Assembly: GCA_921293015.1 (NCBI GenBank)
Contig: OV121088.1
Location: 4,278,001-4,342,000 of the forward strand
Length of the DNA stretch: 64,000 nucleotides
Direction: 5' to 3'
Origin: Phorcus lineatus
Lineage: Eukaryota > Mollusca > Gastropoda > Trochida > Trochidae
Made by a program: the position numbers and the translations under genes. How positions within the stretch are numbered: the stretch's first letter is position 1; each line of letters opens with the position of its first letter. Under the pieces are notes generated by a model. That model worked only from the letters and a program-made list of their open reading frames with translations. It did not search any database and was not told the DNA's origin. Below, piece by piece: positions 604 through 54,214 of the stretch.

Positions 604-752
604 TTAAATTTTGGAGTCTTGAGGCCAGACCTTCTCCATATGTGCCTCCATCCAAAAGAGCTCCTGGTCATCATCTGCTACAAAATGTACTTCTTGTAGA
701 GATCCTCCTGTCACACTCCGGTCAAACGATCTTACTCCCGGTCTCAAGATAG
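604..752 (-). CDS. Unit A exon: C-terminal part of macro-like domain, early stop
   Basis: The exon starts after a TTTTCAG acceptor at 753-755 and runs 149 bases to a TAA at 604. It encodes the final helix and strand of the macro-like fold (GVRSFDRSVTGGSLQEVHFV). In units B and C the frame continues about 25 codons further; here the homologous downstream DNA is still present after the stop, so the stop is a recent truncation rather than the ancestral end. Confidence 0.65.
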
Positions 753-3700
753 CTGAAAATAGGAAGAGGAATAAAGGATTGAAAAAGAGTTGGAAATGAT
801 GTCTCCTAATTGTGAAAAACATAGGTACTTTAATATTCACTGAATATGATTACCACCTTAAAGGGACATATTATAAGTTACCATGTGTCCGCGAGTTTGA
901 TGTGGAGATATATCATGTGTTCGAGTTAAATATCAAACGTAACGTATTTATCTCGACGAAGACCCTTTTTGAATACTTTAGATATGGATTTAAATATTGG
1001 ATGGGTCAAAATGGCGGCTGAAAGTTTGAAAGTGTCTGGACCACAGAACATGAAGGCATCACTGCATAATGCTCTGGTTGGTATGAATATCTATGATTAT
1101 AAATGAAGAGTGAAAACCTCGACTGATATGTGTATAGATTGGTTTTCTGGTTCATCCATCCAATCTCCATCTCGCTGATGGACAGCCTCGCTGCGAGCGA
1201 GAGAGTGAACAGACAGGCTGTTACACACCCCCCCCCCTCCTTGACATGTCTATTATGCAAATCTGAGTGGTAACAGTGTATAAACTGGGACGAAATGTGT
1301 CATTTTTACATATTTCCATGGTACCCCCCCTCAGCCACTTATTCTCTGAAGCGTCACACCGAAAGATGGATGTCCCCATATCTTTGGTTCTAATTATCAT
1401 AGTACCATAATCATGGTATCTAAATGTATGTTTAGAAGTTCACTGAATCCATTGACAGACATTTTAGATAGCTACTATGAGTCATGTGTACGAAATTTTA
1501 GGATTCCGTTACAAAAACTCCTCATTCATGACTTCGATCGGTAACATTTCTGTTTCCTCATCTCTACAGTTAATGTATATAATTTTATTTTACATTATTT
1601 GTACTAAGAGTAGAATTATGAGTACTTGTGACCCTTTTGTGTACATATTTGTACTTATAACGCACAAATTAAGTGTCCCAAAGCAACCCAAGGGACCTAC
1701 CGTTAATCTACTATTATTAAAATACACCAAATCATCCTTGGAAAAAAACCTATTTTCTCTTCTCTACAGTTAATGTATATTATTTTATTTTACATTATTT
1801 GCACTAAAAGGAGAATTATGAGTACTTGAAACTCTTTTGTGTACTTATGTGTACTTATGACACACAAATTAAGTGTCCAAAACCAAACCAAAGGACCTAT
1901 CTTTATTCTACTATCATTGAAATACACCAACTCAACCTTTAAAAAACCTCACAATTTAGTATTTTGGATGTGTTGTTTTACTTCTAAATCATTGGGGATT
2001 TAAAGGGATAGATTTAAAGAGTACAAAGAAGATTCCACATATGTACTAATTCCGTCTTAACACACATCACAGTCATGTAGTAAAGGAGTACATTCTTGCA
2101 AGTTATTCATTTTCAATCTCCATATGACTGTTTGATTCAGCTCCCTTTTGGACATCACCAATTTATCAAAATCATAGTTTTAAGAGAGAGCATCATCATC
2201 AATAAAATCACCATACACCACACACCACAACAACCATCATAAGCATTCTCAAAGCTGTCACGTTGCAAGGCCTTGATGTCGACCAAATCTCTAGGAAGAG
2301 CGCAATGTCTCTAGCTTCCAATCCACAAGAGTCAAACTATGACTCTCATTAGCAACAGGAACAACAGGCATTGGAACAAGAGATGTCTTTCTTAGAGCCA
2401 CCTGTTAACTGAAATGTATTGTATAATACCCCATGCTTTGTATGGTATCATTATAGTGTCCATGTTACAGTGTTTGACTCATCTTCACAGCGATAGTCAT
2501 TCAGTTGCAGACAGCAAACTTTATCAACAATTTTTGTATGCCAGGTCCACCATAGACAACAAAATTGAAATCTTAATAGGGCATTTATAAGTGATATATT
2601 ATAAGGAAGACAAAATTTTCTGTCTTACAACTTTATTTTAAATTTCACGTTCCTGAGTACTGCTTTAGGGGTATAAAAAGCCATATCAGCCGCTGTTCAT
2701 TCAGACTACACAACATCGGTACAGCGACCTGAAACTTGCCAAGACGAAACAGAGCGGAACGCAACAACACTATTGGCAGACTGCAAGCAGGAGCGACGCA
2801 GCCAGATGTTGCAACACACTTTGGCGTGTCCAGACAGACCATCTCTTCATTGTGGACCCGTTTCAACATCCGAAACAGCGTTGATGATAGGCCAAGGTCA
2901 GGCAGACCAAGGGTGACTAGTCGGGCCCAAGATCGGTACATCCGACTGCTCTACCTTCAACGTCAACAACAACGCAGATACCAGACCTGCGTCGAATTTC
3001 CGATCAAACGGTACGCAACAGGCTGAGAGAGGCTGGACTTTTTCCACGATGACCGGTTTGATGTCCACCAGATTTGTCACCAATTGAGCACATCTGGGAC
3101 GAACTGGATCGACGCGCGCACAGTAAGAATCCACCACCCAAAACACTTCTAGCACTTCTTGCAGCACTTCAGCACGAATTGCATAACATTCCACAGGCTG
3201 TGATTGACAACTTGATTGCATCCATGGGTCGTCAGTGCCAAGCAATAATCAATGCCAATGGTGGCCATACCCGATACTGACATTTGTGCACCCCTGTGAT
3301 GTTAAAACACTTGTGCACCTGTGCAATTAAAGATCCTGCTTATTCTGAATAAAATTTACTGAACAGAGATCTTCAAACAGCGTTTTAGTTTTCATTTCAA
3401 TGTTTAACTTGCATCTGTGGTCTTTATTTTGAACTTTGAAAGTCAGTGTCAAGTTTCTCTTTTTTGAGAGTTTATATAAAATCACCTTGCTACAGTAAAT
3501 GGGCACGAATCTTAGATTGTGAATTATCAGAAAAAGATTGGACAATATTGAATACGATTACTCACAAATGTACTCGTAGTACAGACTTAACATGGCTTTA
3601 GTACAGGATTATTCATCATATTCTCCCTACAAATTGTTTCTTATTTCGGATAAAAATATCTGAGTCACCCCTTTGTCGTTTTTGTAATACAGAACTAGAA

Positions 3701-5925
3701 ACTTTGGAACATCTTTTCTTATATTGTAATCCATGTTGTATGGAAAAGATTAGAAAAATGGTTAGAAACCGCCCAAATATATGCAAACGTCACAAGTAAA
3801 GAGATAATACTCGGAATCAAAGGGAAAATTAACAATCCCATTAACGCTATTATTCTGCTTGTAAAAGAAATATATTTCACAAGCGCTATAAAAAAATATA
3901 CCCAAGTTTGATTGTATACTGGGCTGATTAATCAGTACTATGATATAACAAAATGCTTTTATTTAGTTTCTGGTGAGAATGATTTATTCGTCAAGTTCTG
4001 GTCCTCATTACATACTATACTGAGAATTGATTTATAGAAGTTTAATTTTCAACATTGTCTTTGTCAAAGTAACGATTATTATTATTATGTCTGTTATGTA
4101 TTTGTTAACTTTCAGCATTGTCTATAAGTATAACACTTATTGCTATGTTTCTAAAGTGCTTAAGGCCACTAAAACTCCTGCATGTCTGTCACCAGCACAT
4201 ACTGAGATACATATATGCTGAGAGATTGATGTATAGAAGTCAACTTTCAATAATGTCTTTGTTTATGTAACGCTATTTATCACTCTGTCCATAACATGCC
4301 AACGGTCACTTATATCACAAATGTATGTCATGTGTATTTCTTTCTATGGGACAACTATTTCCCCTTGTTTTTCTTTATGTTATTTTGAACGCACTTGTTG
4401 TCAAATTTTTCTATTGTAAAAAATATGGAAATAAAAAAAAATAGTTTAAAAAAAAATAAAATCTAATGAAAATATATTGTCAAGAAAGACTTTTATACTT
4501 ACAAATCCACGGGAACGCAATTGATTTGAGTTTTCTGTTGGCAGCTTCACAGAGACACTTGATGATGCCTTCCCTGGTATTAAATAGACTAACAAGGTTG
4601 AAGATTTTTTGGCAGGGAAGACGACCAGCACCAGTGACAAAAACTGATCCACGAGAAACAAAACCTTTCTCTCGCCTTGTTCTCTGTAACTCATCTGACA
4701 GTTCAGGTCCTGCAGCATCAGCAACAGACCTGGAGACTGTACCCAGTGGTGAGAGATCTGGGTTGACCAGTCTGACGATGACATCTGTTGTGAGTGTTGT
4801 CATATCTCCTTTGTAAAGCTTCAAACTCAGTGTCTTGCCTTGATCAACCAAGCTGCTATCTTGTTGAGTGACTGTCTTCGTCCTCGCCGCAGCTGTGGGT
4901 TGAATATGAATTTAAGTGATTATAAAGAGAAGGTTTTTCTATTTGGTACCTCTAAACATTGCGAACATAAACAGATCAAATTTACAATGCTGTGCATTAA
5001 AATGTTACTTTAATGTGTCTTACTAAGATTGCGAAATCTTGTAGTTTCTTAACTGAAATCACACAACATCCTCCTCCTGTTAAACTTTCAAAACAATGAT
5101 GTGTATTAAATTGTTACTTCAATGTGTTCTACTATTCATGAAAAATCTACAATCACATATTTTGTTATCTGAAATCCTAAAACATTTTTAACTGTCAATA
5201 ATGAATGCAATGTAGACACGAAACCACATTTGTTGCGATTTAATTTTAATCGAAGTTATATTAATGCAGATTCATCTATCAAATTTATCTTTTTAAGCAT
5301 TTCGATAATTAATGTTATTCTGCTCGAATGATTTTAAATCTAATATAAATACTGTGCAGGTCACCATACACCAACACAAAATTTATTGTCGACAGGAGTC
5401 GACTGTCAACTTGTTATTCGGGTATAAAAAGAGAGTATCGAGTGACAAATCAGCTAGTTAAAAGCTTAGAAACGTTGGTAATTCCTCATTATCAGGAATG
5501 AGATTATCAAGATTAGAATATCGAATTTATAAGAAAAGCTTTTAACATTATTAATCAATCGCGCCAATGCGTTTGGATTAATATTTTAGCTGATCTCGGA
5601 CACTGTTTAATAGTAAAACAGTTTAATAGCCAAATAACGTATTCTTTTTACAACTCAGGTGGGACACTGCAATCGGAAATGCCAGTGTGGATTTTTTAAA
5701 TATGAAAACCATTTAAGCAAAACACTGCAAGGTACTTTTGTTTTGATTTATTACAATTTAAACATTATGGAATCATTAAAGTAATTTTCATGTGTATTAT
5801 TGTAATTTGAAAAAAAATGAAATGATTTTTAAATTTAGAGTTTGTTATCTTAAATTCGAAAAGCATTTAATCTTCAAGTGATTGACAACATATAAAACAT
5901 TGATGATTAAAACTTATTAAAAGGG

Positions 5926-5996: not shown

Positions 5997-8047
5997 GTTA
6001 CTGTCTTAACATAAAAATTCAAAGAAACTTAACTTGCAAACAGGAAAAAGAATTTACAAGTCTTTAAATATTTCTAAAAGTTCATCAATTTAAATATCAC
6101 ATCACTGGCTATCTTATCCTGATTGGTTGGTTAACTTGTTGGGCAAGTAATGACAGACACTCCTATTATTTCATATAATGATTGAGAAGAAGAATTCTAA
6201 AAGCCTGAATAAACAAATACATGTATTACTCAAAAAGGTCATGTTTAAAACGAGTTAATTAAATCTTACTAAATGTGATTTGTATTCCAAATAATGAGGT
6301 ACAGGCTCCTATTAAAAATATTCAAACAGAAACCTTTGATTTCAATAATATTAAATAACCATTTTTTGCATAAATATCCAAAGAATCTTAGACTATTAGA
6401 GAATGAATATCTATTGATATTTCTCGGGTTTATACCCTACCACATTGGTGAATTATTGTTCATTATTTTTCGCTTTTTGGTCCATGATCCATTTTTATCA
6501 TAGAATGATATTTGGGAAATTAAACTGATATTAGGAAAGATTTTAATAAATCATTCCAATCTATATTTATTCTTTTCTTCTGATGACAGCTAATGTTGAT
6601 CGACCAACTGTACTAAGTGTCCGAATTTTAAAGTTATATTTGATCATTAGTTGAACTTGGTTGTTGAACTTAAAATTTGTTTCGAGATTAATTGTAGATT
6701 AGACCTTGCATAGATATTGAGAAATATAACCTATAACCTATAACCACACATTAACCAGATATGTTTTTCTCACATTAATCAATGTAAATAGACGTGATCA
6801 ACAGTTGTGAAATCATGTTATGACAATGTTTATAACAAAGACAGGCGATCTAAATGTAACATAAACAATATGGCTCCCCTCAATAAGTAATTCATGAAAA
6901 ATATTTGTCGACTACCTTGAGTGTTTGGAACTGCTTGGGGCAGTGCGTCTTGGCGTCCAAAGGCTCCAAGTTGTGACACAAGTCCATCAAATGTTGTTTT
7001 CTGTGTTGGCGAGAACTTGAGCCTATCTTCATTGATTTTCACATCAGTGGCAACAGGTTGATTTTGCAAAGCATCCACACTTCTCTTGATGGCAGGATAC
7101 ATCTGCAACATCTCCACGTCATCACCTTTCTCCTTGGTCTGGGTGAAGTAGGTATCTGTGGACTCGATGACAGCAAGGGTGGTATCATAAGCTGCTGATG
7201 ACTTCTCAATAGCTGAAAGCATTGCTGAACTTTCTTGCTGCAGTTCAGACAAAAGTTGATTCCTTCGTTGCTCCAGCTGCAGCTTCATGTCATCAATCAT
7301 CTTGTTGATGTTCCTTTCAGACTCCGTCTTGATTCTTTCTACTTCTTTCCCCGTTGCTTTTATTGCTTTTTGACGTTGTTTGAGGCCATTCTTTGTCTTG
7401 TTAATGTCCTTAAGAGATTGCAGAAGAGATGATCTTCTTTTATCAGCAGCATTTTGAGTCTTCACCAAATCATGACCATTGTGATCAATAACTGTACAAG
7501 AAACACAACAGAGTTCCTCATCTGTAGAGCAGTAGAATTCAATGTGTTGCTTCGGATGTTTTGGACAGAAATGACCTTGTGAAAACTCCCTTATTGGTAC
7601 CTTGAGAGCATCTTCCAATGAACTGATATTGTGATCTCTGCTCAAATGGTTACGCTTGTGGGAATTTATGCATTCATTGCAGAGATACGACTGGCATTCA
7701 TCGCATCTCCCATCAGCATTATTGCCATCAGGGCAGTTTGTGCACTTGATCTTCTTCTGTTTTTTCATGTGCAGGAAATCCACCAGCTTGCTCCTTACAG
7801 GATCTGCAGGTAAAGAACTGGCCTTCCCTTTGACCTGTTCAACATGTCTGCAGAGAGGGCAAGTTAGCTGTCCTCTTCCATCCTTCTGAAGGAGCTGATC
7901 TAAGCACTCTGTACATAGGGCATGAAGGCAGTACTTTTGTAGACGGGGACGTCTGTTCGTGTGGTTATAATACTCAACACAAACTGGGCATTCCAAAAAC
8001 TCATCTTTGAGGGATGTGACGTTGACATTCTCTGGTGGTTCAGCCAT
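604..8047 (-). CDS. Unit A: predicted TRIM–macro-like protein gene (3 coding exons)
   Basis: Predicted coding exons in transcription order are 6916-8047, 4503-4892 and 604-752, joined in phase 1 at both junctions, giving 557 codons including the stop. The product would be a RING, B-box 1, B-box 2 and coiled-coil protein followed by a PARP9/14-type macro-like domain. TRIM proteins of this layout are normally RING-type E3 ubiquitin ligases that dimerise through the coiled coil; macro domains bind ADP-ribose. The joining is inferred: the same exon order and phase recur in units B, C and D. The last exon stops about 25 codons earlier than in B or C, and homologous sequence continues past the stop, so the C-terminus is truncated. 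The splice acceptor used 14 bases before the ATG in B and D is not preserved here. It is otherwise open and may be functional. Confidence 0.6.
1206..1560. repeat. Repeat block shared with 38215-38375 and 54885-55215
   Basis: This block contains the phrases AAATCTGAGTGGTAACAGTG, TATAAACTGGGACG, TCAGCCACTTATTCT and AGCGTCACACC. The same phrases recur in the same order and orientation at about 38260-38365 and 54950-55040, and the 1320-1560 part recurs at 55000-55215. It is non-coding and probably part of a mobile element or an old duplicated spacer. A poly-C tract lies at about 1230. Confidence 0.6.
1561..1950 (+). repeat. Two-copy tandem repeat, period about 200 bp
   Basis: TCTCTACAGTTAATGTATAT occurs at 1561 and again at 1761, and the following about 190 bases stay alignable (ATTATGAGTACTTG, AAATTAAGTGTCC, GGACCTA, AATACACCAA). 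The homologous stretch near 55245-55420 appears only once, so the tandem step happened on this copy. Confidence 0.7.
2640..3345 (+). mobile_element. Deleted Tc1/mariner-like DNA transposon
   Basis: Two pieces of one transposase are visible. From about 2736 the plus strand encodes a Tc1-type N-terminal helix-turn-helix region (RNRAERNNTIGRL, VATHFGVSRQTISSLW, DRPRSGRPR). From about 3074 it encodes the C-terminal piece with the SPIEHIWDELDRR motif that holds the last catalytic acid in this family. The central DDE catalytic core is missing and frameshifts or stops lie between the pieces, so the element is inactive. Terminal repeats were not firmly delimited, so the ends are approximate. Confidence 0.75.
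3575..4460 (+). mobile_element. 5'-truncated LINE (L1-like) 3' fragment with A-rich tail
   Basis: At about 3660-3740 the plus strand reads SPLCRFCNTELETLEHLFLYC, the cysteine/histidine motif that follows the reverse transcriptase in many L1-like LINEs. Downstream reading gives EIILGIKGKINNPINAIIL and LVKEIYFTSAIKKYTQ, typical of the LINE C-terminus. The segment ends in an A-rich stretch (AATAAAAAAAAATAG, then a second A run) at about 4430-4460. It is short, interrupted by stops and non-functional. The start is approximate. Confidence 0.65.
4503..4892 (-). CDS. Unit A exon: N-terminal part of macro-like domain
   Basis: This is a 390-base exon between a CACAG acceptor and a GTAAGT donor, open in the frame set by the TRIM exon (phase 1 in, phase 1 out). 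Recognisable macrodomain landmarks are the KLYKGDMTTL start, a DVIVRLVN strand where active macrodomains have a NAAN-like motif, AAGPEL, VFVTGAGRLPC and a terminal SIAFPWI. The order and wording resemble PARP9/PARP14 macrodomains. The glycine-rich loop 1 of ADP-ribose binders is replaced by a DLSPLG-type stretch. Antisense reading frames here are shadows. Confidence 0.75.
4893..6915. other. Unit A intron 1 (TRIM to macro-like exon)
   Basis: This is AT-rich intronic sequence, paralogous in part to introns 1 of B, C and D (the AATGTAGACACG and ATTTTGATAA-type blocks, and the AATGTAAATAGAC block before the TRIM donor). It holds an AT microsatellite. The 37-bp minisatellite of B, C and D is represented by only about one unit near 6735-6790. 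An open frame at 6294-6503 has no recognisable domain and is taken as chance. Confidence 0.5.
5929..5992. repeat. (AT)n microsatellite
   Basis: An almost perfect alternating TA/AT tract of about 60 bases. Confidence 0.95.
6916..8047 (-). CDS. Unit A exon: RING–B-box–B-box–coiled-coil (TRIM) module
   Basis: This is a 377-codon exon with no stops. The RING finger has cysteine/histidine ligands at residues 20, 23, 40, 42, 45, 48, 63 and 66 (CPVC ... CLHALC ... CPLC). B-box 1 spans about 102-137 (CTNC, CDEC, CKEC-like pairs, then H). B-box 2 spans about 160-191 (CPKH ... CCVSC ... DHNGH). A coiled coil rich in K, Q, E and R covers about 195-300. No NHL or B30.2 domain follows. The start is the ATG at 8047, the position conserved in B and D. 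The end is a donor (CAAG|GTAGTC) at 6916, leaving phase 1. Residues of about 191-250 differ much more from B and D than the rest does. As a family, such proteins ligate ubiquitin and often act in innate immunity; the target here is unknown. Confidence 0.85.
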
Positions 8048-10450: not shown

Positions 10451-10882
10451 AATCTTTTGTGTGGCTTAGATACGAACCAAAATGCTAAGTCAAACTACCT
10501 CTCTAAATTTGCATCTTCGTCTTTAAAATGCCAAAACTATTATATTAACTTAAAACTTAAAACTATCAATAAATAAAATAAATTTCCTGTGTGTCTAATG
10601 TTTATAAGTATTACTTTGAGTCGCCCAGAAATCTATGCATGCCAGGGTATTTGATGTGTTGAAGGAGTAGTATTGCCCATTTCATTATTAATGTTTTTAA
10701 AGTATTTAAAATAATGTCACAATTATAAGCATAATGAATATATACTTTCAAGTATAATTGTTTGTCGGAGTGGGGCTCCTGAAAGAACTCAAATAATTCT
10801 CCGATCACACCAAATTGTTGTTTATCAATCAACGAGCTACATACACCACATATAATACCACATTAACGTTTAGTTCGATGAT

Positions 10883-11109
10883 TCACTGTGATGGGTATGA
10901 TAGCAAAGTTCCTGCAGAGGGATGGAGATGTTTTTCGATCATATCAATATCCTGCTGATCAATCTCGGAGACACAAGGCCAGGTCTTCTTCATCTGGTCC
11001 TCTGTTCTAGAGAGATCCCAGCCGTTATCAACTACAATACATGTATGTACTTCTTGTAGAGACCCTCCTGTTACAGTCTGGTCAAATAATTGTATTAGTT
11101 GTATAAATG
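10883..11109 (-). CDS. Unit X exon: C-terminal part of macro-like domain
   Basis: After a TTTTTCAG acceptor (11110-11112) the exon is open in the conserved phase to a TGA at 10883-10885. It encodes LIQLFDQTVTGGSLQEVH, then an acidic/aromatic stretch and DIDMIEKHLHPSAGT, and ends in YPSQ. No ATG near the start keeps it from being obvious as an open frame; homology with B and C (VTGGSLQEVH, IREHLHPSSGT) reveals it. Confidence 0.6.
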
Positions 11110-14083: not shown

Positions 14084-14466
14084 ATTTCCATGGGAATGCA
14101 ATTGATGAGAGTTTTCGGTTGGTGGTTTCACAGAGACACTTGATGGTTCCTTCTTTGATATAATGTAGACCAACAATGTTGAAGATTTTCTTGCAGGGAA
14201 GAGGACCAGCATCAGTGACAACAACAGATCCATGAGAAATCTTATCTTCATCTCGTCTTATTCTCTCTAACTGATCTGTCAGTTCAGGTCCTGCAGCAGC
14301 AACAGAGTTGGAGATTTCACAAAATGGCGATAGATCTTGGTAAACCACTCTGACGATGACATCTGTTGTGAGTATTGTCATATCTCCTTTGTAAAGCTTC
14401 ACAGTCAGTGTCTTGCCTTGAGCAAACATGAGGCCATCTTGTTTAGTGACTGTTGCATCGGTGCAA
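14084..14466 (-). CDS. Unit X exon: N-terminal part of macro-like domain
   Basis: Open from the FAQGKTLTVKLYKGD strand through AAGPELTDQLERIRR, SVVVTDAGPLPCKK and SIAFPWK to a GTAAGT donor at 14083. Compared with C, about four bases are missing between the acceptor and the VTKQ codons. A second copy of an exon start, with a better match to C, lies 200 bases upstream (14646-14680). Confidence 0.55.
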
Positions 14467-18342: not shown

Positions 18343-18566
18343 TCACTCTGGTGTATTTGACAGCGAGGTCCCTGAAGAGGGATGGAGATGTTCTCTGATC
18401 ACATCAACATCCTGTAGATCAATCTTAGAGCCTTGAGGCAAGATCTCCTTCATCTGTTCCTCCATGTCAGAGAGCTGCCTGCCATTAGCAGCTACAAAAT
18501 GGACTTCTCGTAGAGATCCTCCTGTCACACTCTGGTCAAATGTTCTTACTGCTGGCATCATGGGAT
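18343..18566 (-). CDS. Unit B exon: C-terminal part of macro-like domain
   Basis: After a TTTTTCAG acceptor, 224 bases give PMMPAVRTFDQSVTGGSLREV then HFVAANGRQLSDMEEQMKEI and a tail ending SNTPE, followed by a stop at 18343. It corresponds to the last helix and strand of a macrodomain plus a short tail. The usual phosphate-binding loop (G-x-G-x-x-G-F-P) that should sit between this exon and the previous one is not encoded in either. Confidence 0.72.
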
Positions 18567-21500: not shown

Positions 21501-24500
21501 CTTAAATGGAAGAGCATCAACAGATATTGCCACAACATTGTAGGAAAAAAATTTTCTCGAAAGAGAAGGCCAGGCAACAATCTATTTTATTCAACAAGAT
21601 TCAAGATTGAACAAGATTATGAATTTTAAGGAAGCAGATTATATTCCACTGGAAAGTTTTGAGCTTGAGTAGAGTTTTCTAAAAGCACGAAAATATCCAT
21701 CATTAATTGAGTTTTCTAACAATAGAGTTGAATTACACTATGGAAATAGTTTTCCTAATAACTTGAAGTGAATACTGAAACGTTCGTGAAAAATAAATAA
21801 TAATAATAATAATGGTAATGATAATAATGATTTTGATCAATATCATGAATTTTCACGAACCTTCTTAATGCACTCACCAACTAATGAATATATCTAATTT
21901 AACTGCCTACATCACGCCGCCTTCCCCCCAAATAGTAAGTCAGAAAAGGAATTTCTTTCTGTGTTGTCCACAATATATTCACACTCATTAATTAAGCACT
22001 TATTTTCCTTTGATGGCATCTCTTTATGATATCTTTGAACATCATTGTTCCTAACGTTATGATAATTTTATGCAAAGTGTATTTATAGTTGAAATGTTAT
22101 GAATGCATGGCTATTTTAAATTTTTATAAAACATCATGCCTTTTTGTACACGCAAATATGATTGGCAAGTGATGTGTCTGGTGATGGTAATAGTTTCTAT
22201 TCAGGAAAGATTCACAGTTAATTATATGTTCATGAAAGATAAGGTAAAGTGTTGATCAGAATGTTTGGAAAAGATATATATACTTACAAATCCATGGGAA
22301 TGCAATCGATGTGAGTTTTCTTTTGGCAGCTTCACAGAGACAGTTGATGATGCCTTCTTTCATATTGTATGCAACAAGATTGAAGATTTTCTTGCAGGGA
22401 AGACGACCAGCATTAGTGACAACAACTAATCCTGGTGAAGCCTGACATTTCTCTCGTCTAATTCTCTCTAACTGATCTGTCAGTTCAGGTCCTGCGGCAG
22501 CAGCAACAGAGTTGGAGACATCATGCCATGGTGATAGATCTTGGTTAACCAGTCTGACGATGACATCTGTTGTGAGTGTTGTCATATCTCCCATGTAAAG
22601 CTTCACAGTCAGTGTCTTGCCTTGAGCAACCGTGCAGCCATGCTGTTGAGTGACTGTCACCGTCCTCTGTGCTTCTGTGGGTTGGATTGACAGTAAGTGA
22701 CTGTAAAGATGGCTTTTGAATTTGGTTCTTCTTTAGTAAAAAGTATTGTTGTTTTATTCATGTTAAGATACAAACTATCTCTGTGATAAACAGATCACTA
22801 TTGTGGAGATAGACATATCAAATATAAAATTTTGTGTATCAAAATGTTACTTCATTGTGTCTTACTAGGATAGACAAATATACAATCATGTAGTTTCCAA
22901 TTTGAAATCTTTTAACTAAGTGTTTGACTGTCATTAGTGAGAGCAATGTATAAACGAAAGCTGTTGCGATTTCATTTCAATGAAAGGTATATTCATTTAG
23001 CTTTATCTATTCATTTATATCTATTATCTTTCAAAGTCTCTTTTTAGGCATTTTGATAATAAATGACATTTTGATCGAATGATTTCTACAGATATAACCC
23101 TAACCTATCAGGGAAGATAAGATGCTATTGTAAAAACAGCGGATCGTAAACAAACAATTGAATGATTTGAAGTAAAGAAAAAAATATTTGCCATGATGGC
23201 GCTGAATATTTTATTTGCGAGGCTGAGAGGGCCACAAAACAAGTCGCCTATAAAACAACAAAGGTTTAAAGGATCCGACTGTCAACAATATATTTTTTTC
23301 GGATATTAATAGATTTTACACAAGCAGATATGTCACAACTCAGGTGTCTAATGGCTTGCTGTCGGCTCGGAAGATAAACTTGTGTTGTAAAAGCAATATG
23401 ACCTCCAAAAAGTGTGTTCATATCCTGATTATCCATAGCATCAGAAGGTCAGAATTTAGAAAATCAGAAACGTTATTGGCATCATTAAAAGGATTATCAT
23501 ATTATTTTATATCATACATTTATCAAGACAACAAATACAAAAGTGAACAAATACGCTCGTACATGTATGAGTGCTTAAGGTCAAAATATTTTTGGAGTAC
23601 CTTGACATAATTCCTGCTTTGCCCAAGAAGGACGAGAGTACTTTTGGAAACCTGATTGAATTTTTACTAACTGAGGAAACAGTTCAGCAGATGCATTTTT
23701 CTATTGCTATTAATGGCTTTCTATCGGGTTTATGGTCCATGTTTGGATTAATGGAATAATGTTCAGAGAATCGAATTGATATAAGGAAACAACTGAATAC
23801 TGTCTATTTATTGTCCCTCTTTTCTTCCTGTAACAGATAAAGTTGATCGACAAACCAAACTAGGTGTCTGACTTTTTATTTCATATCTTATGTGTTCCAC
23901 ATCAACTATAAAGTCAAATGCCCTATATAGTTTTCTCGTTTTAACTAGTCATATACTTTATATGTTTTCCTCATATTAACTAGACTCAAATAACCTACAT
24001 GTTTTCTCATATCAACTAGAGTCATATAAACTATATGTTTTCCTCATATTAAGTAGAGTCATATAACCTACATGTTTTCCTCATATTAACTAGACTCATA
24101 TAACCTATAAGTTTTCCTCATATTAACTAGACTCATATAACCTATATGTTTTCCTTACAATAACTAAAGACATATAAGTTTTCCTCATATTAACTAGACT
24201 CATATACCCTATAAATTATCCTTACAATAACTAAAGGCATATACCCAATATGTTTTCCTTTCATTAGATAGTCAAATAACCTATATGCTTTCCTAACATT
24301 AACTAGAGTAATATACCCTATACGTTTTCCTTACAATAACCAGAGTCAGATAACCAATATGTTTTCCTTACATTAACAATAGTCATATACCTTATATGTT
24401 TCTTAAATTCCCTATATGTTTTTCTCACATTAACTAGAGCCATATACCCTATATACGACTTTACATTAACTAGAACATAAACCCCTGATGTTTTGCTCAT

Positions 24501-25960
24501 ATTAACTAGAACTATATACCTAATATGTGTCTTTACATTAATCAGAACCAAATATCCCGTATGGTTTCCTCACATTATCTAGAGTAATATACACTATATG
24601 TTTTCCTCATATCAACAATAGTCATATACCCTGTATGTTTTCAACACTTTATACAATGTAAATAGACCGTGGACAACAGTAATTAAATCATGTTATAACA
24701 ATTTATATTACAATGACAAGCGGTTTAAATCTAGTCATATAGAACATAAACAAACATCGCTCCTCTAAGGACCATTTACCAATTCATATTCCTTAGAACA
24801 CCAGTATATGAAATATTTTGTCACTTACCTTGAGTGTGTTGAACTGCTTGGGGTGGGGCGTCTTGACGTTCAAAAGCTCCAAGTTGTGAAACAAGTCCAT
24901 CAAATGTTGTTTTCTGCGTTGGCGAGAATTTGAGCCTGTCTTCATTGATTATCACATCATCAGCAACTGGTTGACCTGTAAGAGCATCCACACTTCTCTT
25001 GATGGCAGGATACATCTGCAACATCTCCACGTCATCAGCTTTCTCCTTGGTCTGGGTGAAGTAGGTGTCTGTGGACTCGATGACAGCAAGGGTGGTATCA
25101 TAAGCTGCTGATGACTTCTCAATAGCTGAAAGCATTGCTGAACTTTCTTGCTGCAGTTCAGACAAAAGTTGATTCCTTCGTTGATCCAGCTTCAGCATCA
25201 TGTCATCAATCATCTTGTTGATGCTCCTTTCTGACTCCTTCTTCATTTGCTCCACAGCATTTCTCTTTGCTTTCATTGACTTTTGACGTTGTTGTAGGAC
25301 AGTCTTGGTCTTGTATACGTCCTTGAGAGATTCTTGGATGGAGGATTTCCTCCGAGCAGCTGCATCTTGAATCTTCTCAAACTCATGACCTTTGTGATCA
25401 ACTACTGTACAAGAAACACAACAGAGTTCCTCCTCTGTAGAGCAGTAGAATTCAATGTGGTGCTTTGGATGCTTTGGACAGAAATGACCTTGTGAAAACT
25501 CCCATATTGGAACGTTGAGAGCATCTTCAATGGAACTGATATTGTGATCTCTGCTCAAATGGTTTCGTTTGTGAGCATTTATGCATTCCTTGCAGAGATA
25601 CGACTGACATTCATCACATCTGCCATCAGCATTATTGCCATCAGGGCAGTTTGTGCACTTTATCTTCTTCTGTTGCTTCATGTGTAGGAAATCCACCAGC
25701 TTGCTTCTTACAGGATCTGCAGGTAAAGAACTGGCCTTCCCTTTGACCTTTGTAACATGTCTGCAGAGAGGGCAAGTGAGCTGTCCACCTCCTTCCTTAT
25801 GTATGAGCTGATCTAGGCACTCAGTACATAGGGCGTGAAGGCAGTTCTTAAGTAGGCGGGGACGTCTGTTTGTGTGGTTATAATACTCAACACAGACCGG
25901 GCATTCCAAAAACTCATCTTTGAGGGATGTGACATCGACATTCTCCAGAGGTTCAGCCAT
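18343..25960 (-). CDS. Unit B: intact predicted TRIM–macro-like protein gene (3 coding exons)
   Basis: Exons in transcription order are 24829-25960 (1132 bases), 22288-22674 (387) and 18343-18566 (224). Together they make 1743 bases, exactly 581 codons including the stop, with phase 1 introns. This is the best-preserved unit: all exons are open, with good acceptors (TTTTCAG, CCCACAG, TTTTCAG) and GTAAGT donors. The protein would have a RING (20-66), B-box 1 (102-137), B-box 2 (160-191), coiled coil (about 195-300), a 75-residue linker and a macro-like domain (about 380-560). Expected role by family: a dimeric ubiquitin ligase; the macro-like part may recognise a ligand or partner. The exon joining needs transcript support. 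Confidence 0.7.
18567..22287. other. Unit B intron between macro-like exons
   Basis: Contains the 142-bp minisatellite. Otherwise it is AT-rich sequence partly alignable to the same intron of X, C and D (for example TTTTCACGAACCTTCTTAATG near 21850). Open frames at 19348-19590 and 20489-20683 have no recognisable domain and no counterpart, so they are not called. Confidence 0.45.
19890..20315. repeat. 142-bp minisatellite, three near-identical copies
   Basis: ACGCTTCACCTGTTGCTTG starts at 19890, 20032 and 20174, giving an exact 142-base period. The copies differ by only one or two bases. A single diverged version of the same unit occurs near 30875-30960, showing it was amplified from ordinary spacer DNA. 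Confidence 0.95.
22288..22674 (-). CDS. Unit B exon: N-terminal part of macro-like domain
   Basis: A 387-base open exon, phase 1 at both ends. Landmarks are KLYMGDMTTLTTDVIV, RLVNQDLSPW, AAAAGPELTDQLERIRR, LVVVTNAGRLPCKKIFNLV and SIAFPWI. These follow the strand order of PARP9/14 macrodomains (GD-T, NAAN-like, AAGPEL, LPCK, SIAFPAI). The Gly-rich loop 1 and the NAAN-type asparagine pair are not conserved, so ADP-ribose hydrolysis is unlikely and binding is uncertain. Confidence 0.78.
22675..24828. other. Unit B intron 1 with degenerate minisatellite
   Basis: The part from 22675 to about 23890 is intronic sequence alignable to introns 1 of C and D (CTTGCTGTCG, CAATATGACCTCC, GGAAACAACTGAATA blocks). 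The 37-bp repeat follows. Open frames at 23344-23610 and 23571-23759 are not supported. Confidence 0.5.
23890..24650. repeat. Degenerate tandem repeat, unit about 37 bp (unit B)
   Basis: About 20 imperfect units of the form CATATACCCTATATG, TTTTCCTCACATTAACTAGAG. Homologous arrays lie in the same intron of C (35530-36420) and D (52330-52910). Unit A has only about one copy. Copy number and decay differ between units. Confidence 0.85.
24829..25960 (-). CDS. Unit B exon: RING–B-box–B-box–coiled-coil (TRIM) module
   Basis: 377 open codons from ATG 25960 to a CAAG|GTAAGT donor. RING ligands are C20, C23, C40, H42, C45, C48, C63 and C66. B-box 1 has C102, C105, C115, C118, C123, C126, H130 and H134. 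B-box 2 has C160, H163, C172, C180, C183 and H188/H191. The coiled coil is rich in K, E and Q (KDVYKTKT, QRQKSMKAKRN, MKKESERSINKM). The frame is open further upstream to 26134, but a strong TTTTCAG acceptor sits 14 bases before the ATG and is shared with D, so this ATG is chosen. The linker carries a conserved FSPTQKTTFDGLVSQLGAFE block of unknown function. Nearly identical to D. Confidence 0.88.
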
Positions 25961-32282: not shown

Positions 32283-32506
32283 TCACTCTGGTGAATTTGA
32301 CAGCGAGGCCCCTGAAGATGGATTGAGATGTTCTCTGATCACATCGGTATCCTCCTTTTCTACCTTTGAGATTTGATGCCAGACTTCCTTCACATGTAAT
32401 ACCCTCCCAGAAAACTGCCAGTTATCCTCAGATACAATATGTACTTCTTGTAGAGATCCTTCTGTCACACTCAGGTCAAACGATCTTACTGCTGGTATCA
32501 TGAAAT
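32283..32506 (-). CDS. Unit C exon: C-terminal part of macro-like domain
   Basis: A 224-base exon after a TTTCTCAG acceptor, encoding MIPAVRSFDLSVTEGSLQEV and ending SLSNSPE. Same length and end as in unit B. Confidence 0.68.
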
Positions 32507-33739: not shown

Positions 33740-34129
33740 AATTCCATGGAAATGCAATTGATGAGAGTTTCCTGTTGACAGCTTCACAGAGACACCTGGT
33801 GACGCCTTTTCCAGCATCATATGGACTTACAAAGTTGAAGATTTTCTTGCAGGGAAGACGACCAGCATCAGTGACAACAACTGATCCTGGAGGAGCCGGA
33901 CCTTCTTCTCGTCTTATTCTGACTAATTTATCTGGCAGTTCAGGTCCTGCTATATCAGCAACATATCTTGAGGCTGCATGCCATGGTGATAGTTTCTGAT
34001 CAACCTCTCTGACGATGACATCTGTTGTGAGTGTTGTCATATCTCCCTTGTAAAGTTTCACAGTCAGTGTCTTGCCTTGAGCAACCATACATCCATCTTG
34101 TTGAGTGACAGTCATCGTCCTCGGTACAG
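33740..34129 (-). CDS. Unit C exon: N-terminal part of macro-like domain
   Basis: A 390-base open exon, phase 1 at both ends, with KLYKGDMTTLTTDVIV, AGPELPDKLVRIRREEG, SVVVTDAGRLPCKK and SIAFPWN. The open frame also extends upstream through the acceptor, but the CCACAG acceptor and the AVPRTMTVTQQDG start match the other units. Intact although the upstream TRIM exon is broken. Confidence 0.7.
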
Positions 34130-36618: not shown

Positions 36619-37734
36619 CTTGAATGCTATGAACTGCTTGGGATGGGTCGTCTTGACGTTCAAAAGCTCCAAGTTGTGACACAAGTCCATCAAATGTTGT
36701 TTTCTGCGTTGGCGAGAATTTGAGCCTTTCTTCATTGATTCTCACATCTTTAGCAACTGGTTGACCTGTAAGAGCATCCACACTTCTCTTGATGGCAGGA
36801 TACATCTGCAACATCTCCACGTCATCAACTTTCTCCTTTGTCTGGGTGAAGTAGGTGTATGTGGACTCGATGACCGCAAGGGTGGTATCATAAGCTGCTG
36901 ATGACTTCTCAATAACTGAAATCATTGCTGAACTTTCTTGCTGCAGCTCAGACAAAAGTTGATTCCTTCGTTGATCCAGCTGCAGCTTCATGTCATCATT
37001 CATCTTGTTGATATTCATTTCTGACTCCTTCTTCATCTGCTCTACAGCATTTCTCTTTGCTTTCGTTGACTTTTGACGTTGTTGTAGGTCAGTCTTGGTC
37101 TTGTAAACGTCCTTGAGACATTCTTGGATGGAGGTTTTCCTCCAAACAGCTGCATCTTTAATCTTCTCAAACTCATGACCTTTGTGATCAACTACTGTAC
37201 AAGAAACACAACAGAGCAGTAGAATTCAATGTGGTGCTTTGGATGCTTTGGACAGAAATGACCTTGTGAAAACTCCTTTATTGGAACCTTGAGAGCATCT
37301 TCCAATGAACTGATATTGTGATCTCTGCTCAAATGGTTTCGATTGTGAGCATTTATGCATTCCTTGCAGATATACGACTGGCATTCATAACATCTACCAT
37401 CAGCATTATTTCCATCAGGGCAGTTTGTGCACTTTATCTTCTTCTGTTGCTTCATATTCAGGAAATCCACAAGCTTGCTTCTTACAGGATCTGCAGGTAA
37501 AGAGCTGGCCTTCCCTTTGACCTTTACAACATGTCTGCAGAGAGGGCAAGTTAGCTGTCCTCTTCCTTCCTTTTGTATGAGCTGATCAAGGCACTCAGTA
37601 CATAGGGCGTGAAGGCAGTTCTTTAGTAGACGGGGACATCTGTTTGTGTGGTTATAATGCTCAACACAGACCGGGCATTCCAAAAACTCATCTTTGAGGG
37701 ATGTGATATCGACATTCTCCAGAGGTTCAACCAT
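36619..37734 (-). pseudogene. Unit C TRIM exon with 16-bp deletion
   Basis: The RING (CPVC, CLHALC, CPLC), B-box 1 and the first half of B-box 2 read well from the ATG at 37734 down to about 37215. The frame is then lost. In the shifted frame the coiled coil and linker are intact down to a GTTAGT donor at 36618. Compared with B, one RING-region change gives EHYNHTNRCP, and B-box 1 has Y for D in its CDEC pair (CYEC). Confidence 0.75.
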
Positions 37735-45902: not shown

Positions 45903-46156
45903 TTAATACCACATTAATCTTCGAGGCGACCATTCACTATGATGAATTAGACAGAGAGGCTCCTGAAGAGGGTTGAAGCCGTTTCTGATCACATCAATAT
46001 CCTTATGTTCAATCTTGCAGATTTGAGGCAAGACCTCCTTTAATTGTTCATCCATCTTAGAGAGCTGCTGGTTGTCTTTAGTTACAAAATGTACTTCTTG
46101 TAAAGATCCTCCTGTCACACTCCGGTCAAACGATCTTACTGCTTGTATCGTGGAGG
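45903..46156 (-). CDS. Unit D exon: C-terminal part of macro-like domain, altered tail
   Basis: After a TTTTCAG acceptor it encodes IQAVRSFDRSVTGGSLQEVH and KIEHKDIDVIRN. A one-base loss relative to B then changes the tail, which runs on to end in LMWY at 45903. The conserved fold part is intact. Confidence 0.55.
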
Positions 46157-47929: not shown

Positions 47930-50412
47930 GAATCCATTGGAACGCAATTGATTTGAGTTTTCTGTTTGCAGCTTCACAGAGAGACTTCATGATGCCTTCT
48001 CTGATATTAAATATTCTGACAAAGTTGAAGATTTTCTTGCAGGGAAGAGGACCAGCATCAGTGACAACAACTGATTCAGGAGAAACTAGACCTTTCTGGT
48101 TTAAACATATTTATTTCAAAAAGATGAATTGGATTGGTAAACAAGCCATAGGCTTATGTAAATACCGCTCCAAGATACAAATATGATACATGCCATGGTG
48201 ATTTTACAATATACAATATACAGACACAACAGTTCATTATAATTACAACAAACGCAATGATTACAGAACATTGAGTGCTAATCTGTTTTTACAAACGCCA
48301 AAAGGTCATTACCAATGCAAATAATACAGAACATTGAAATATAATCAATCAATAAGTCATTTTGCAAATCTGCCTGTTAAATTTATAAATTCGTGCACTG
48401 ATGTTAAAAGTTCCATATTTTTGGTAGCGGAACAATTTATGTTTCCGAACAAAACTGATTTTACATCAAAACCTCTATGAAAGTAAAACATGTTGTGTCT
48501 TATAGAGCTGTAAAGAGGACATATGAAGAAAAAGTGAGTTGAATCCTCATAACAATGGCCACAAGCACAGACGGGCGATTGTGATATGAATCTTTCATAC
48601 TTGTGTGCATTTAAGTCGCTGCATTCAAGTCTTAGACGAGTATGTATGATTTGTCAAAATCTGCTGCCATAATTTAGGTCAAAGTTACTGTATGTTTCAT
48701 TATCATGGAGGAGAGCATTTTTGAAAGTCAATAAAGATGGCGAATTTCTATGTTCTATCGGTAATGAGTTCCAAAGTTTAACAGCGTCAGGAAGGAGAGA
48801 TCTCGCATAGTTTACAGATTTACAATCTAAAGTCTGGAGTTTCGAATCGTCACGAAGATTGTAATCAACGATATCCGATATTTTAGGAGGTACCAAGTTG
48901 CTTACATAGCTGGGTGTATTGTGATTTACCATTTTATAGAAAAACGTCATTTTATGAACGTATCGTCTATGACATAATGGTTTGCACTTTGTTTCTTTAT
49001 AAATTTTATGATGGCTGGTACCCCACAGATCAATAGTAGAAAGGTGATGAGCAATGATACATGGTTGTTATAAATACATAAAATTGAGAAAAGATAACAC
49101 TGTTTTCTAAATTTAAAGGCAGATTTGCTATGAAGATGGCAAACAAACGAACCCACCGCTTGTCTATATTGCACAATATCAACCAGGGTTCGTACAATGA
49201 GCTAATATGACAAATGCAACTAATAAATGTTGTTAGTTGACACTCATGTGGCTCTTCCTTATTTTCAAAATTGCAAAATAATGAGACAAAATATACATTG
49301 CAGTCTGTGTTTTGAGAACAAAAACCATATATACACGAAAAAGTTGACTTCAGAAAGAAGTTAACATTGAAGTGATTTAGGAAAATGAAAATAAAAAGAA
49401 GTAATAGTAACAAGATGAAAAGAGACATCTTGTTATGAGTGAGACATATGAAGAAGTATATATAAAGTTGTAATAGGTGATATTTTTTTTATTGCGAATA
49501 GACTTATGGATTACAGCAATGATTTAACTTAATAAATATTTTTAGAAAATAAGCATGAACTCGTTAAAAATATTGTTATCTACTTGTGTTTATGTATAAT
49601 TGTATCTGTTGCGGTGTTTCATAGAACTTGCTGATGACATCTCATGTTCCGTGTTTAGCAAGATGCACGTGCAAAGAGAGATATTCTGTATAGCAAGGAC
49701 TTGTGTCGTGTTGGCAATGACAAGTGTAAAATGGATTGGGATTATTTTTACATTCGTAAGTACTTTAACTCTCTATATATTATATGAATAGTACATAAAT
49801 TATCCTACAGTATGAGAATATAAAGTTTGTTATTTGCTGTATGGTTAATAATGTTTAAGGATGATATCGGTCCATTATTTTTCAAGTTAAATATGTTAAC
49901 ATGTGTTTTATGGGGTACAGTAATAGGTGAGAAATGTACATATTTGAAGTAGCTTAAACTAACCACGTTATGCTTGAAGGTATAGAGGTTCAGTCTTAAA
50001 CATTATCAAAAGTTTAGAGCAAAAGAGGACGTAATTTAAATTACCACAAAAATTATAAACACAAATACTATATACTTATTCCTTAAGTAATTCCCTCGAC
50101 TATGTAGAAAGGTATTGGTGTTCATACATAATAACTACCAGTACGCTTTATACCATTTTGTCAGACTTATATATCAATATACACGTGTAAATGACTGCTG
50201 TTTATAATCTGTATTTTACAAAACATGACATACAATCAAATTTCAATTTTAGATTGTACTAACACACAATTAAATATCCATCAACTAGTGGACAGATTTA
50301 AACCCACATCATTCAATACACAATTACACACAAACATACATTCACACCAAGATATACTCATTCGTGTAGAATGAACTAGACCTTTCTCTCGTCTTATTCT
50401 CTCTAACTGATT
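47930..50412 (-). pseudogene. Extra macro-like N exon fragment split by a LINE
   Basis: Positions 47930-48097 encode the end of a macro-like exon (SVVVTDAGPLPCKK, then a SIAFQWI-type end at a GTAAGT donor). The continuation appears at 50388-50412 beyond the insertion, and homology stops there, so the exon's first half is gone. This is a second, dead copy of the unit D exon. Confidence 0.75.
48098..50373 (-). mobile_element. LINE (non-LTR retrotransposon) insertion with 14-bp duplication
   Basis: The insert is bounded by the direct repeat AACTAGACCTTTCT (48084-48097 and 50374-50387). On the minus strand, about 48660-49030 encodes the C-terminal reverse-transcriptase region of a LINE: an IYKETKCKPLCHRRYVHKM segment, FFYKMVNHNTPSYVSNLVPP, YNLRDDSKLQ and LLPDAVKLWNSLP. 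Further on (about 48400-48660) comes a cysteine/histidine motif (CACGHCYEDSTHFFFICPLY). Stops and shifts make it dead. The part beyond about 49200 was not recognised. Confidence 0.8.
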
Positions 50413-50542: not shown

Positions 50543-50936
50543 CATGCGTACAATGGAATGCGACCGATGCGAGTTTTCTGTCGGCAGCTTCACAGAGACA
50601 CTTGATGATCTCTGCTGCATGATAAACATATTCTGACAAGGTTGAAGATTTTCTTGCAGGGAAGAGGACCAGCATCAGTGACAACAACTGATCCAGGAGA
50701 AGCCTGACCTTTCTCTCGTCTTATTCTGTCTAACTGATCTGACAGTTCAGGTCCTGCAGCATAAGCAATAGAGTTGGAGATTACACCAAATGGGGATAGA
50801 TTTGGGTCAACCAGTTTGACGACGACATCTGTTGTGAGTGCTGTCATATCTCCCTTGTAAAGCTTCACAGTCAGTGTCTTGCCTTGAGCAACAGTGCAGC
50901 CATCTTGTTGAGTGACTGTCATCGTCCTCGGTGCAG
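50543..50936 (-). pseudogene. Unit D macro-like N exon with frameshift
   Basis: Open from APRTMTVTQQDGCTVAQGK through AAGPELSDQLDRIRREKG and SVVVTDAGPLPCKKIFNLV. One extra base lies in the 25-base stretch before IIKCLCEAA, compared with 24 in A. After the shift, homology continues as IIKCLCEAADRKLASVAFHC and ends at a GTGAGT donor different from the GTAAGT of the others. Confidence 0.7.
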
Positions 50937-52329: not shown

Positions 52330-52910
52330 CTATAATTTTGACTTTTTAATTCATATCTGATGTCTTCTCACATCAACTATAAATTCATATGCCCTATTCG
52401 ACTTGCCTAAAGTGTTGTTATCTCCCTTTATAAAGTGTTTCAGAGTAGCTACCCGTCAATATGGTTTTCTCGTTTCAACTAGAGTCATATACTTTCTATG
52501 TTATAATCACATTTACTGGATTCATTTAACCTATATGTTTTCCTTACATTAACCAGAGTCAGATAACCAATATGTTTTCCTAACACTCACAAGAGCCATG
52601 TACCCCATATGTTTCTTAAATTCCCTATATGTTTTTCTCACATTAACAAGAGACATGCCCTATATGTTTCTTAAATTCCCTATATGTTTGCTCACATTAA
52701 CTAGAGCCATATACCCTATGAGCCACTTTACATTAACTAGAACATAAAACCCTTAATCTGTTACTCATATGTACTTGAACTATATACCTAATATGTCTCT
52801 TTATATTAACTATAGAACCAAATATACAGTATGTTTCCTTCACATTAACTAGAGTAATATACACTATATGTTTTCCTCATATCAACAACAGTCATAAACC
52901 CTGTAGTTTT
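52330..52910. repeat. Degenerate 37-bp tandem repeat (unit D)
   Basis: Shorter array of the same family as 23890-24650. It preserves the empty site of the unit C solo LTR (TATACCTAATATGTCTC near 52785). Confidence 0.8.
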
Positions 52911-53082
52911 CAACACTTTATACAATGTAAATAGACCGTGGACAACAGTAATTAAATCATGTTATAGCAATGTATATAAAAATGATAAGCGGTTTAACTT
53001 TATTCATATAGAACATAACAAACATCGCTGCTCTAAGGAGAATTTACCAATTCATATTTATTTGAATTATTTTGTCACTAAC

Positions 53083-54214
53083 CTTGAGTGCGTTGAACTG
53101 CTTGGGGTGGGGCGTCTTGACGTTCAAAAGCTCCAAGTTGTGACACAAGTCCATCAAATGTTGTTTTCTGCGATGGCGAGAATTTGAGTCTGTTTTCATT
53201 GACTCTCACATCATCAGCAACTGGTTGACTTGTAAGAGCATCCACACTTCTTTTGATGGCAGGATACATCTGTAACATCTCCACGTCATCAGCTTTCTCT
53301 TTGGTCTGGGTGAAGTAGGTGTCTGTGGACTCGATGACAGCAAGGGTGGTATCATAAGCTGCTGATGACTTCTCAATAACTGACAGCATTGCTGAACTTT
53401 CTTGCTGCAGTTCAGACAAAAGTTGATTCCTTCGTTGATCCAGCTGCATCTTCATGTCATCAATCATCTTGTTGATGTTCCTTTCAGACTCCTTCTTCAT
53501 CTGCTCTACAGCATTTCTCTTTGCTTTCATTGACTCTTGACGTTGTTGTAGGTCAGTCTTGGTCTTGTATACGTCCTTGAGAGATTCTTGGATGGAGGAT
53601 TTCCTCCGAGCAGCTGCATCTTGAATCTTCTCAAACTCATGACCTTTGTGATCAACTACTGTACAAGAAACACAACAGAGTTCCTCATCTGTAGAGCAGT
53701 AGAACTCAATGTGGTGCTTTGGATGCTTTGGACAGAAATGACCTTGTGAAAACTCCCTTATTGGAACGTTGAGAGCATCTTCAATGGAACTGATATTGTG
53801 ATCTCTGCTCAAATGGTTTCGCTTGTGAGCATTTATGCATTCCTTGCAGAGATACGACTGACATTCATCACATCTGCCATCAGCATTATTGCCATCAGGG
53901 CAGTTTGTGCACTTTATCTTCTTCTGTTGCTTCATGTTCAGGAAATCCACCAGCTTGCTTCTTACAGGATCTGCAGGTAAAGAACTGGCCATCCCTTTGA
54001 CCTTTTCAACATGTCTGCAGAGAGGGCAAGTGAGCTGTCCACCTCCTTCCTTTTGTATGAGCTGATCAAGGCACTCAGTACACAGGGCGTGGAGGCAGGT
54101 CTTTAGTAGACGGGGACGTCTGTTCGTGTGGTTATAATACTCAACACAAACCGGGCATTCCAAAAACTCATCTTTGAGGGATGTGACATCAACATTCTCC
54201 AGAGGTTCAGTCAT
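53083..54214 (-). CDS. Unit D exon: RING–B-box–B-box–coiled-coil (TRIM) module
   Basis: 377 open codons from ATG 54214 (acceptor TTTGCAG 14 bases upstream) to a CAAG|GTTAGT donor. All RING and B-box metal ligands seen in B are present. It differs from B at scattered sites only (for example T for N at residue 39 before the CLHALC, M for K at 75). The coiled coil contains KDVYKTKTDLQQRQ and AVEQMKKESERNINKM. The intact reading frame, despite damaged downstream exons, suggests either recent damage or selection on the TRIM part alone. Confidence 0.87.

Follow-up and report, generated by a model that had tools for sequence, protein, structure and literature searches.

A tandem array of predicted TRIM genes with a macro-derived C-terminal domain in the gastropod Phorcus lineatus

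Results

A tandem array of TRIM and macro exons

A stretch of 64,000 nucleotides from the gastropod Phorcus lineatus (contig OV121088.1 of assembly GCA_921293015.1, forward-strand positions 4,278,001 to 4,342,000; in the following referred to as the window and numbered from its first base) contains a tandem array of minus-strand genes between positions 604 and 54214, in which an exon for a TRIM module is followed by two exons related to macrodomains. We consider it rather probable that the intact genes code for TRIM ubiquitin ligases whose macro-derived tail serves as a diversifying recognition surface, comparable to the B30.2 domain of the finTRIM proteins. The array and its gene models, the domains they contain, the loss of the ADP-ribose loop and binding motifs from the tail and a marked contrast in evolutionary rate between the two parts of the gene are the observations on which this reading is built.

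By tblastn searches with the exons of one complete unit (unit B) against the window, we located four TRIM exons, six copies of exon 2 and five copies of exon 3. One of the six exon-2 copies is truncated at its 5' end (D) and another one is frameshifted (E). The tandem minus-strand array claimed in an earlier analysis of the bare sequence (the original prediction) was thereby recovered, with sets of macro exons in five units (A, A2, B, C and E). The TRIM exons are spaced by 17.9, 11.8 and 16.5 kb. Because the non-coding DNA between the units also aligned with itself when the window was compared to itself, large stretches must have been duplicated. The exons are located as follows (all on the minus strand).

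604..752, minus: unit A exon 3, with an earlier stop than in unit B and hence a shorter C-terminus (tblastn and frame)
4503..4892, minus: unit A exon 2, macro (PF01661, 41.4 bits)
6916..8047, minus: unit A exon 1, TRIM module (Pfam matches and frame check)
about 10881..11109, minus: unit A2 exon 3 copy (tblastn)
14084..14466, minus: copy of exon 2 in unit A2 (383 nt), which does not fit the frame set by a phase-1 donor; this unit has no TRIM exon
18343..18566, minus: unit B exon 3, C-terminal macro part and tail, including the stop codon (tblastn, frame and joint alignment)
22288..22674, minus: unit B exon 2, N-terminal part of the macro fold (two thirds; PF01661 and Foldseek), donor GTAAGTATA
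24829..25960, minus: unit B exon 1, RING, B-box 1, B-box 2 and probable coiled coil, 377 codons plus 1 base
32283..32506, minus: unit C exon 3, open, frame matching exon 2
33740..34129, minus: unit C exon 2, macro (Pfam and frame check)
36619..37734, minus: unit C exon 1, TRIM module, frameshift near 37210
about 45960..46156, minus: D, exon-3 copy downstream of unit E (tblastn)
47930..48098, minus: D, second exon-2 copy, 5'-truncated (tblastn), donor GTAAGTATA
about 50635..50936, minus: unit E exon 2, macro, frameshifted past about 50635
53083..54214, minus: unit E exon 1, TRIM module, open (Pfam and frame check)

Gene models and splice sites

Complete open frames of three exons, joined by phase-1 introns with GT..AG borders, were obtained for two of the five units, A and B. 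The exons of unit B add up to 1132 + 387 + 224 = 1743 nt, which is exactly the 581 codons given in the original prediction and comprises 580 amino acids and the stop, and those of unit A amount to 1132 + 390 + 149 = 1671 nt, open throughout and coding for 556 amino acids plus a stop. The proposed junctions at 24829/22674, 22288/18566 and 6916/4892 proved exact, and all TRIM exons end in phase 1 as had been stated, those of A, B and E after 1132 nt each and that of unit C, which measures 1116 nt and carries a frameshift, in its last part. The other three units are broken: C by the frameshift in its TRIM exon, E by a frameshift in exon 2, and A2 by an out-of-frame exon 2 and the missing TRIM exon. 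Four units indeed possess both TRIM and macro exons, but only A and B are open throughout, and the duplicated units together with three broken ones agree with the description of an expanding and decaying array. Because of the frame breaks in E and A2, the arguments on coding capacity given below apply to units A and B and, as far as the macro part is concerned, to C.

The first donor reads GTAAGT in unit B (AAG/GTAAGT), GTTAGT in C and E, and a weaker GTAGTC in A, while the second donor is GTAAGT in all five copies examined (A, A2, B, C and D), and a pyrimidine tract precedes all five exon-3 acceptors. Polyadenylation signals after exon 3 or the TRIM exon were uninformative, with 0–4 per 600 nt compared to 1.5 expected. 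We also considered whether the TRIM exon of unit B might be spliced alternatively to the macro exons of A2 and rejected this, since the 383-nt exon 2 of A2 is out of frame after a phase-1 donor and meets a stop at codon 21.

Reading the TRIM and macro exons as one predicted polypeptide draws on frames and splice sites, and we therefore weighed whether they might belong to separate genes, with a TRIM-only transcript ending after exon 1 and the macro exons representing another gene or remnants. Such an arrangement would accommodate the stop codon that the frame of unit B reaches two codons beyond the first donor, the macro exons of A2 lacking a TRIM exon, the weak first donor of A and the ATG codons in the open frame upstream of exon 2 in unit C. 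It is nevertheless unlikely, because the TRIM exon is followed on the same strand by a frame-compatible exon 2 in four of the five units (A, B, C and E), and because the open stretch before exon 2 contains no ATG in A, A2, B and E. The macro frame has moreover been kept: non-coding alignments between the units (34 alignments of at least 150 columns, 66–95% identical, outside the exons and the main repeats) showed 11.4 gap openings per 100 mismatches, so that about 11 indels would be expected under neutrality alongside the 96 differences by which A and B diverge in their macro exons, but both units retain a frame of about 530 nt (P about 7e-4, assuming that one third of the indels are multiples of three). 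When all 146 minimum changes of exon 2 were placed at random, 3.4 stops were expected, compared to none observed in the domain frame of A, A2, B and C (P 0.026), and the same procedure gave 2.3 expected stops for exon 3 (P of none 0.088); the earlier stop of unit A in exon 3 may be a random change of this type. The TRIM module and the macro-fold exons can thus be written as one in-frame gene model, as originally proposed, with A and B in frame and RING, B-box and Macro matched by Pfam.

Domain identity of the TRIM exon and the tail

The spliced unit B protein matched the RING models PF13445 (29.9 bits, cut-off 25.2) and PF00097 (25.9 bits, cut-off 21), with other RING models staying below threshold, and two stretches matched the B-box model PF00643 (44.8 bits, cut-off 24.1). 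RING matches were also obtained for units A, C and E, and RING and B-boxes together were recognised in A, B and E. Among solved structures, the TRIM exon is closest to TRIM28 (E 3e-17), TRIM3 and TRIM32, and the alignment to TRIM28 extends to residue 282, which lies inside the coiled-coil region. A coiled coil behind the B-boxes is probable, with profile matches below the Pfam cut-off (see Discussion).

The same spliced protein matched the Macro model PF01661 with 42.7 bits (cut-off 22), so that RING, B-box and Macro all exceeded their Pfam cut-offs. Scores of 32.0–45.3 bits were found for all five exon-2 open reading frames (ORFs) tested, a set outside which the truncated D copy falls. C-terminal of the B-boxes, Macro was the only model to pass a Pfam cut-off in spliced B, and neither a B30.2 nor a PARP domain was matched there. 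A profile of the tail from five units retrieved PARP14 (E 1.1e-21), PARP9 (2.6e-10) and bacterial O-acetyl-ADP-ribose deacetylases as its nearest solved relatives, the macrodomains of PARP9, PARP14 and PARP15 being the nearest eukaryotic ones by sequence. An AlphaFold2 model, which covers exon 2 and was computed with the six window copies as input, showed a mixed alpha/beta fold with a mean pLDDT of 69.6. Its best Foldseek match was macrodomain 2 of PARP14 (E 2.1e-7, probability 1.00, TM by query 0.63), and the best 50 of 488 matches in the PDB (E up to 10) were all macrodomains or fusions carrying one.

The assignment of exon 3 is less direct. Compared alone to solved structures, it yielded five matches, none of them a macrodomain (best E 0.24). 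With a profile restricted to the second half of the macro region, an alignment through exon 3 to macroH2A1 was obtained, although a weak one (E 0.004), and the profile of the whole tail also ran through exon 3 in several macro chains. Of the two macro-fold exons in the original prediction, exon 2 is accordingly matched by Macro in its own right, but exon 3 would belong to the fold only when aligned jointly with exon 2.

Loss of most of the ADP-ribose pocket

In macrodomains, the pyrophosphate is enclosed by a loop of the GxGxxG type following SIAFP, which reads GSGRNGFP in macroH2A1. VNxxN and the GG of loop 1 bind ADP-ribose, and a GD motif is located at the adenine site. All four units having both macro exons (A, A2, B and C) lack the pyrophosphate loop where exon 2 joins exon 3. 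In the weak macroH2A1 alignment mentioned above, SIAFPSIGSGRNGFP... faces SIAFPW and then a gap of 13 residues, by which the loop is taken away, and in the alignment to macrodomain 1 of PARP14, VNASNEDLKHYGGL faces VRLVNQDLSPWHDV. Among the matches listed, 11 macro chains that align beyond the loop point exceed the profile by 16–29 residues; part of this excess falls into the beta5-alpha4 loop, which is also lacking in PARP14 (4abk) and PARP15 (3v2b). We do not count the shortness of the beta5-alpha4 segment as a further deletion, since both of these chains align there without gaps and it is thus no sign of loss.

Because the gap coincides with the exon 2/3 junction, we searched for a mini-exon between exons 2 and 3. 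Scanning all three frames for the loop motif gave three matches in A2 and two overlapping ones in D, and none in the A, B and C introns or the tail behind E. Spliceable phase-1/phase-1 mini-exons (1, 2, 1, 1, 2 and 2 in A, A2, B, C, D and the E tail, respectively) contained no loop motif and, as judged by eye, were not common to the units, although the strict splice-site filters could miss a weak one. The motifs of the pocket have changed as well. The first Asn of VNxxN is replaced by Arg in four of the five units and by Lys in the remaining one, and the second position is occupied by Asn in two units, Asp in two and Tyr in one. The GG of loop 1 is complete in none of the five units and keeps its first Gly in two, whereas the GD motif is invariant in all five.

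These data bear directly on the possibility that the tail is a true ADP-ribose reader, which would bind ADP-ribosylated targets and have them ubiquitinated by the attached ligase, as implied by the "ADP-ribose-like reader" of the original prediction. The fold of the PARP14/PARP9 type, the retained GD motif and the unaffected beta5-alpha4 segment would fit such a function. The absent pyrophosphate loop, the loss of VNxxN and GG and the fast change of loop 1 (see below) argue against it, so that we regard a genuine reader as improbable and find this part of the prediction not supported. Ordinary ADP-ribose binding by the tail is unlikely, judging from the residues present, and weak or altered binding would be compatible with the GD motif kept in all units.

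Evolutionary rates of the two parts

We analysed the units by GY-type codon models with F3x4 frequencies, using three of the four TRIM exons as a whole and five of the six exon-2 copies. The TRIM exon is under clear constraint, with an omega of 0.27 for A, B and E (p = 4e-12 vs. 1) and of 0.19 for its first half after adding unit C in two pieces. The values for exon 2 (0.99) and exon 3 (1.33) did not differ from 1. For A, B and E, separate omegas of 0.28 for exon 1 and 0.88 for exon 2 fitted better than a shared one (p = 1.6e-4), and the comparison of A and B alone yielded 0.26 for the part with RING, B-boxes and coiled coil (RBCC) vs. 0.88 for the macro part (p = 1.3e-4 for the difference).

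Exon 2 does not evolve uniformly, as two site classes were superior to a single omega (approximate p = 8e-7) and about a third of its codons showed an omega near 0. Adding a class above 1 (omega 3.9, 21% of the codons) improved the fit further (p = 4e-4), and a value as extreme never occurred in 160 simulations that lacked positive selection. The result was robust to topology (p at most 4.1e-4 in 15 of 15) and persisted after removing either A2 or E (p at most 0.0042 with all topologies); the corresponding test on exon 1 gave no signal of positive selection. Ten codons of exon 2 reached a posterior above 0.8, four of which lie in a 15-codon stretch of loop 1, two of them at the former GG. The clustering in loop 1 (P = 0.017) is weak, since the stretch was chosen after the sites were known. 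The fast change of the tail fits the look of an immune locus noted in the original prediction, and an immune role of the array itself may be supposed from this pattern.

Duplications and other features of the window

Several side observations were made within the array. A tandem segmental duplication of about 13 kb (26265–32798 and 39121–46453) is represented by seven aligned pieces of 78–95% identity. In the TRIM exon and its near flanks (24518–25978, 36310–37752 and 52786–54231; about 1.46 kb), unit C is 92–93% alike to both B and E, while stretches of intron 1 further away from the TRIM exon are 71–80% alike. The TRIM part may have undergone gene conversion, with constraint on the exon also contributing to the likeness. 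In B, C and E, the first intron contains a 37-base minisatellite (23922–24642, 35540–35778 and 52527–52614), and intron 2 of unit B contains three copies of a 142-base unit which are 99% alike (19890–20321). Short minus-strand fragments resembling the start of a RING are located upstream of the TRIM exons of C (38019–37966, EFLQCPVCVK; E 0.04) and B (26075–26028, with a stop; E 0.46); these weak matches are perhaps remnants of a partial duplication or due to chance.

Outside of the units, a plus-strand ORF at 2733–3023 matched a helix-turn-helix model (PF13518, 28.5 bits, cut-off 25) and looks like a transposase remnant. Plus-strand ORFs beyond the array at 57488–59722 may be exons of an unrelated gene. 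Their assignment by eye to a telomere-binding TRFH domain was abandoned, as no Pfam match passed and two of the ORFs found no credible solved structure. Positions 1–402 recur as an inverted copy at 43787–43384 (89% identity), probably a dispersed repeat. Rfam and tRNA scans of the window found nothing.

Discussion

TRIM proteins generally recruit a charged E2 via their RING domain and dimerise via their coiled coil. If transcribed and spliced as one gene, an intact unit of the array would code for a single RING E3 ubiquitin ligase in which one exon contributes a RING, two B-boxes and a probable coiled coil, and two further exons add a PARP14/PARP9-type macro fold at the C-terminus. The RING would recruit the charged E2, the coiled coil would dimerise the protein, and the macro-derived tail, having lost the ADP-ribose loop and motifs, would most likely recognise proteins and thereby select the target for ubiquitination. 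The tail changes quickly among copies while the ligase part stays more constant, and copies arise and break as in pathogen-driven immune gene families.

The known TRIM classes C-I to C-XI carry C-terminal domains such as B30.2, NHL, PHD-bromo, MATH, ARF or FN3, and the tail of the array falls outside of these, since only Macro passes a Pfam cut-off there. Among solved relatives, the TRIM exon is nearest to TIF1/TRIM28 and TRIM2/3/32/56, but the tails differ, those of these proteins being PHD-bromo or NHL domains or lost (subfamilies are tabulated in PMC3503706). A ubiquitin ligase is also linked with macrodomains in the DTX3L-PARP9 complex, which presumably binds and ubiquitinates ADP-ribosylated targets. 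However, this complex consists of two proteins, with a ligase, DTX3L, from outside the TRIM family, whereas in the array a ligase module and a macro fold are predicted to share one polypeptide.

FinTRIMs, TRIM5alpha and other B30.2 TRIMs share the RING, the B-box(es) and the coiled coil with the array proteins and end in B30.2 instead of a macro-like tail. FinTRIMs resemble the array in being duplicated genes with a fast-evolving C-terminal domain, the loops of their B30.2 domain being the diversifying part under positive selection, and they show a few selected sites near the RING, of which none were detected in the array (PMC2657112). A new C-terminal domain gained via exons downstream of the RBCC module is likewise known from zebrafish, where ftr06 acquired a chromodomain and ftr52 a RanBD/cyclophilin part, (PMC3137616); in the array the new domain is macro-like, and its combination with the TRIM module was duplicated along with the array. 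Conversely, array proteins differ from PARP9, PARP14 and PARP15 in having a single macro module with a TRIM attached, no PARP domain found and no pyrophosphate loop. Because the macrodomains of primate macro-PARPs are under positive selection (PMC4038475), parallel to the array tail, a macro surface engaged in conflict with pathogens has a precedent.

No TRIM-macro family was apparent by title or abstract in the open-access literature searched, which is weak evidence, and the architecture may already be annotated. In the sections available, macro domains and TRIMs are mentioned separately in PMC8195603, the only "macro" in a survey of TRIM origins (PMC3503706) is that of "macrophages", and no TRIM-macro protein appears in PMC8382680, PMC4245714, PMC4038475, PMC3137616, PMC10875847, PMC2657112, PMC13224862 or PMC7566600. 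Among viral contigs, the TRIM exon had no match, and none of 36 pattern matches to the macro exon was confirmed.

Several points weigh against a diversifying recognition tail on a TRIM ligase. The joining of both parts is deduced from frames and splice sites, and the coiled-coil model PF25600 (TRIM_CC) scored 17.9 bits in B and 24.8 bits in A, below its cut-off of 30. The coiled-coil half of exon 1 is less constrained (omega 0.50), the macro omega of A vs. B is indistinguishable from 1 (p = 0.80), neutrality is not rejected for exon 3 (p = 0.21 and p = 0.16), whose site test is borderline (p = 0.0505), and the site test on exon 2 yields p = 0.116 with A, B and C alone. The codon models were run with our own code rather than a published program, and the site tests take no recombination or gene conversion between the units into account. 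The five paralogues come from a single locus and three are broken, so that some of the excess of amino acid changes may reflect relaxed constraint. Finally, four of the ten called sites lie in the former ligand loop, unlike in primate macro-PARPs, in which positive selection affects surfaces at a distance from the ADP-ribose site (PMC4038475). An array consisting of recent pseudogenes, with a macro omega near 1 from plain loss of constraint, would explain this neutral macro omega, the three broken units and the early end of exon 3 in unit A, but is likewise unlikely in view of the frames of A and B being open across 556 and 580 codons, the constraint on exon 1, the non-uniform rates within exon 2 and the lack of stops in its domain frame.

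We favour the interpretation of the tail as a diversifying recognition surface on a TRIM ligase. More tentatively, a macro fold stripped of its nucleotide pocket may have become a hypervariable recognition surface that takes the place of B30.2 in TRIM5 and finTRIMs, representing an undescribed class of TRIM proteins and an independent origin of a restriction-factor-like architecture. If this is true, the recognition tails known from TRIM proteins would include the macro fold besides B30.2, NHL and cyclophilin, and a macrodomain that had lost its ligand loop would be used for binding proteins. This would caution against reading every Macro match as an ADP-ribose reader, and the array would offer a defined candidate for studying how animals vary their intracellular recognition proteins.

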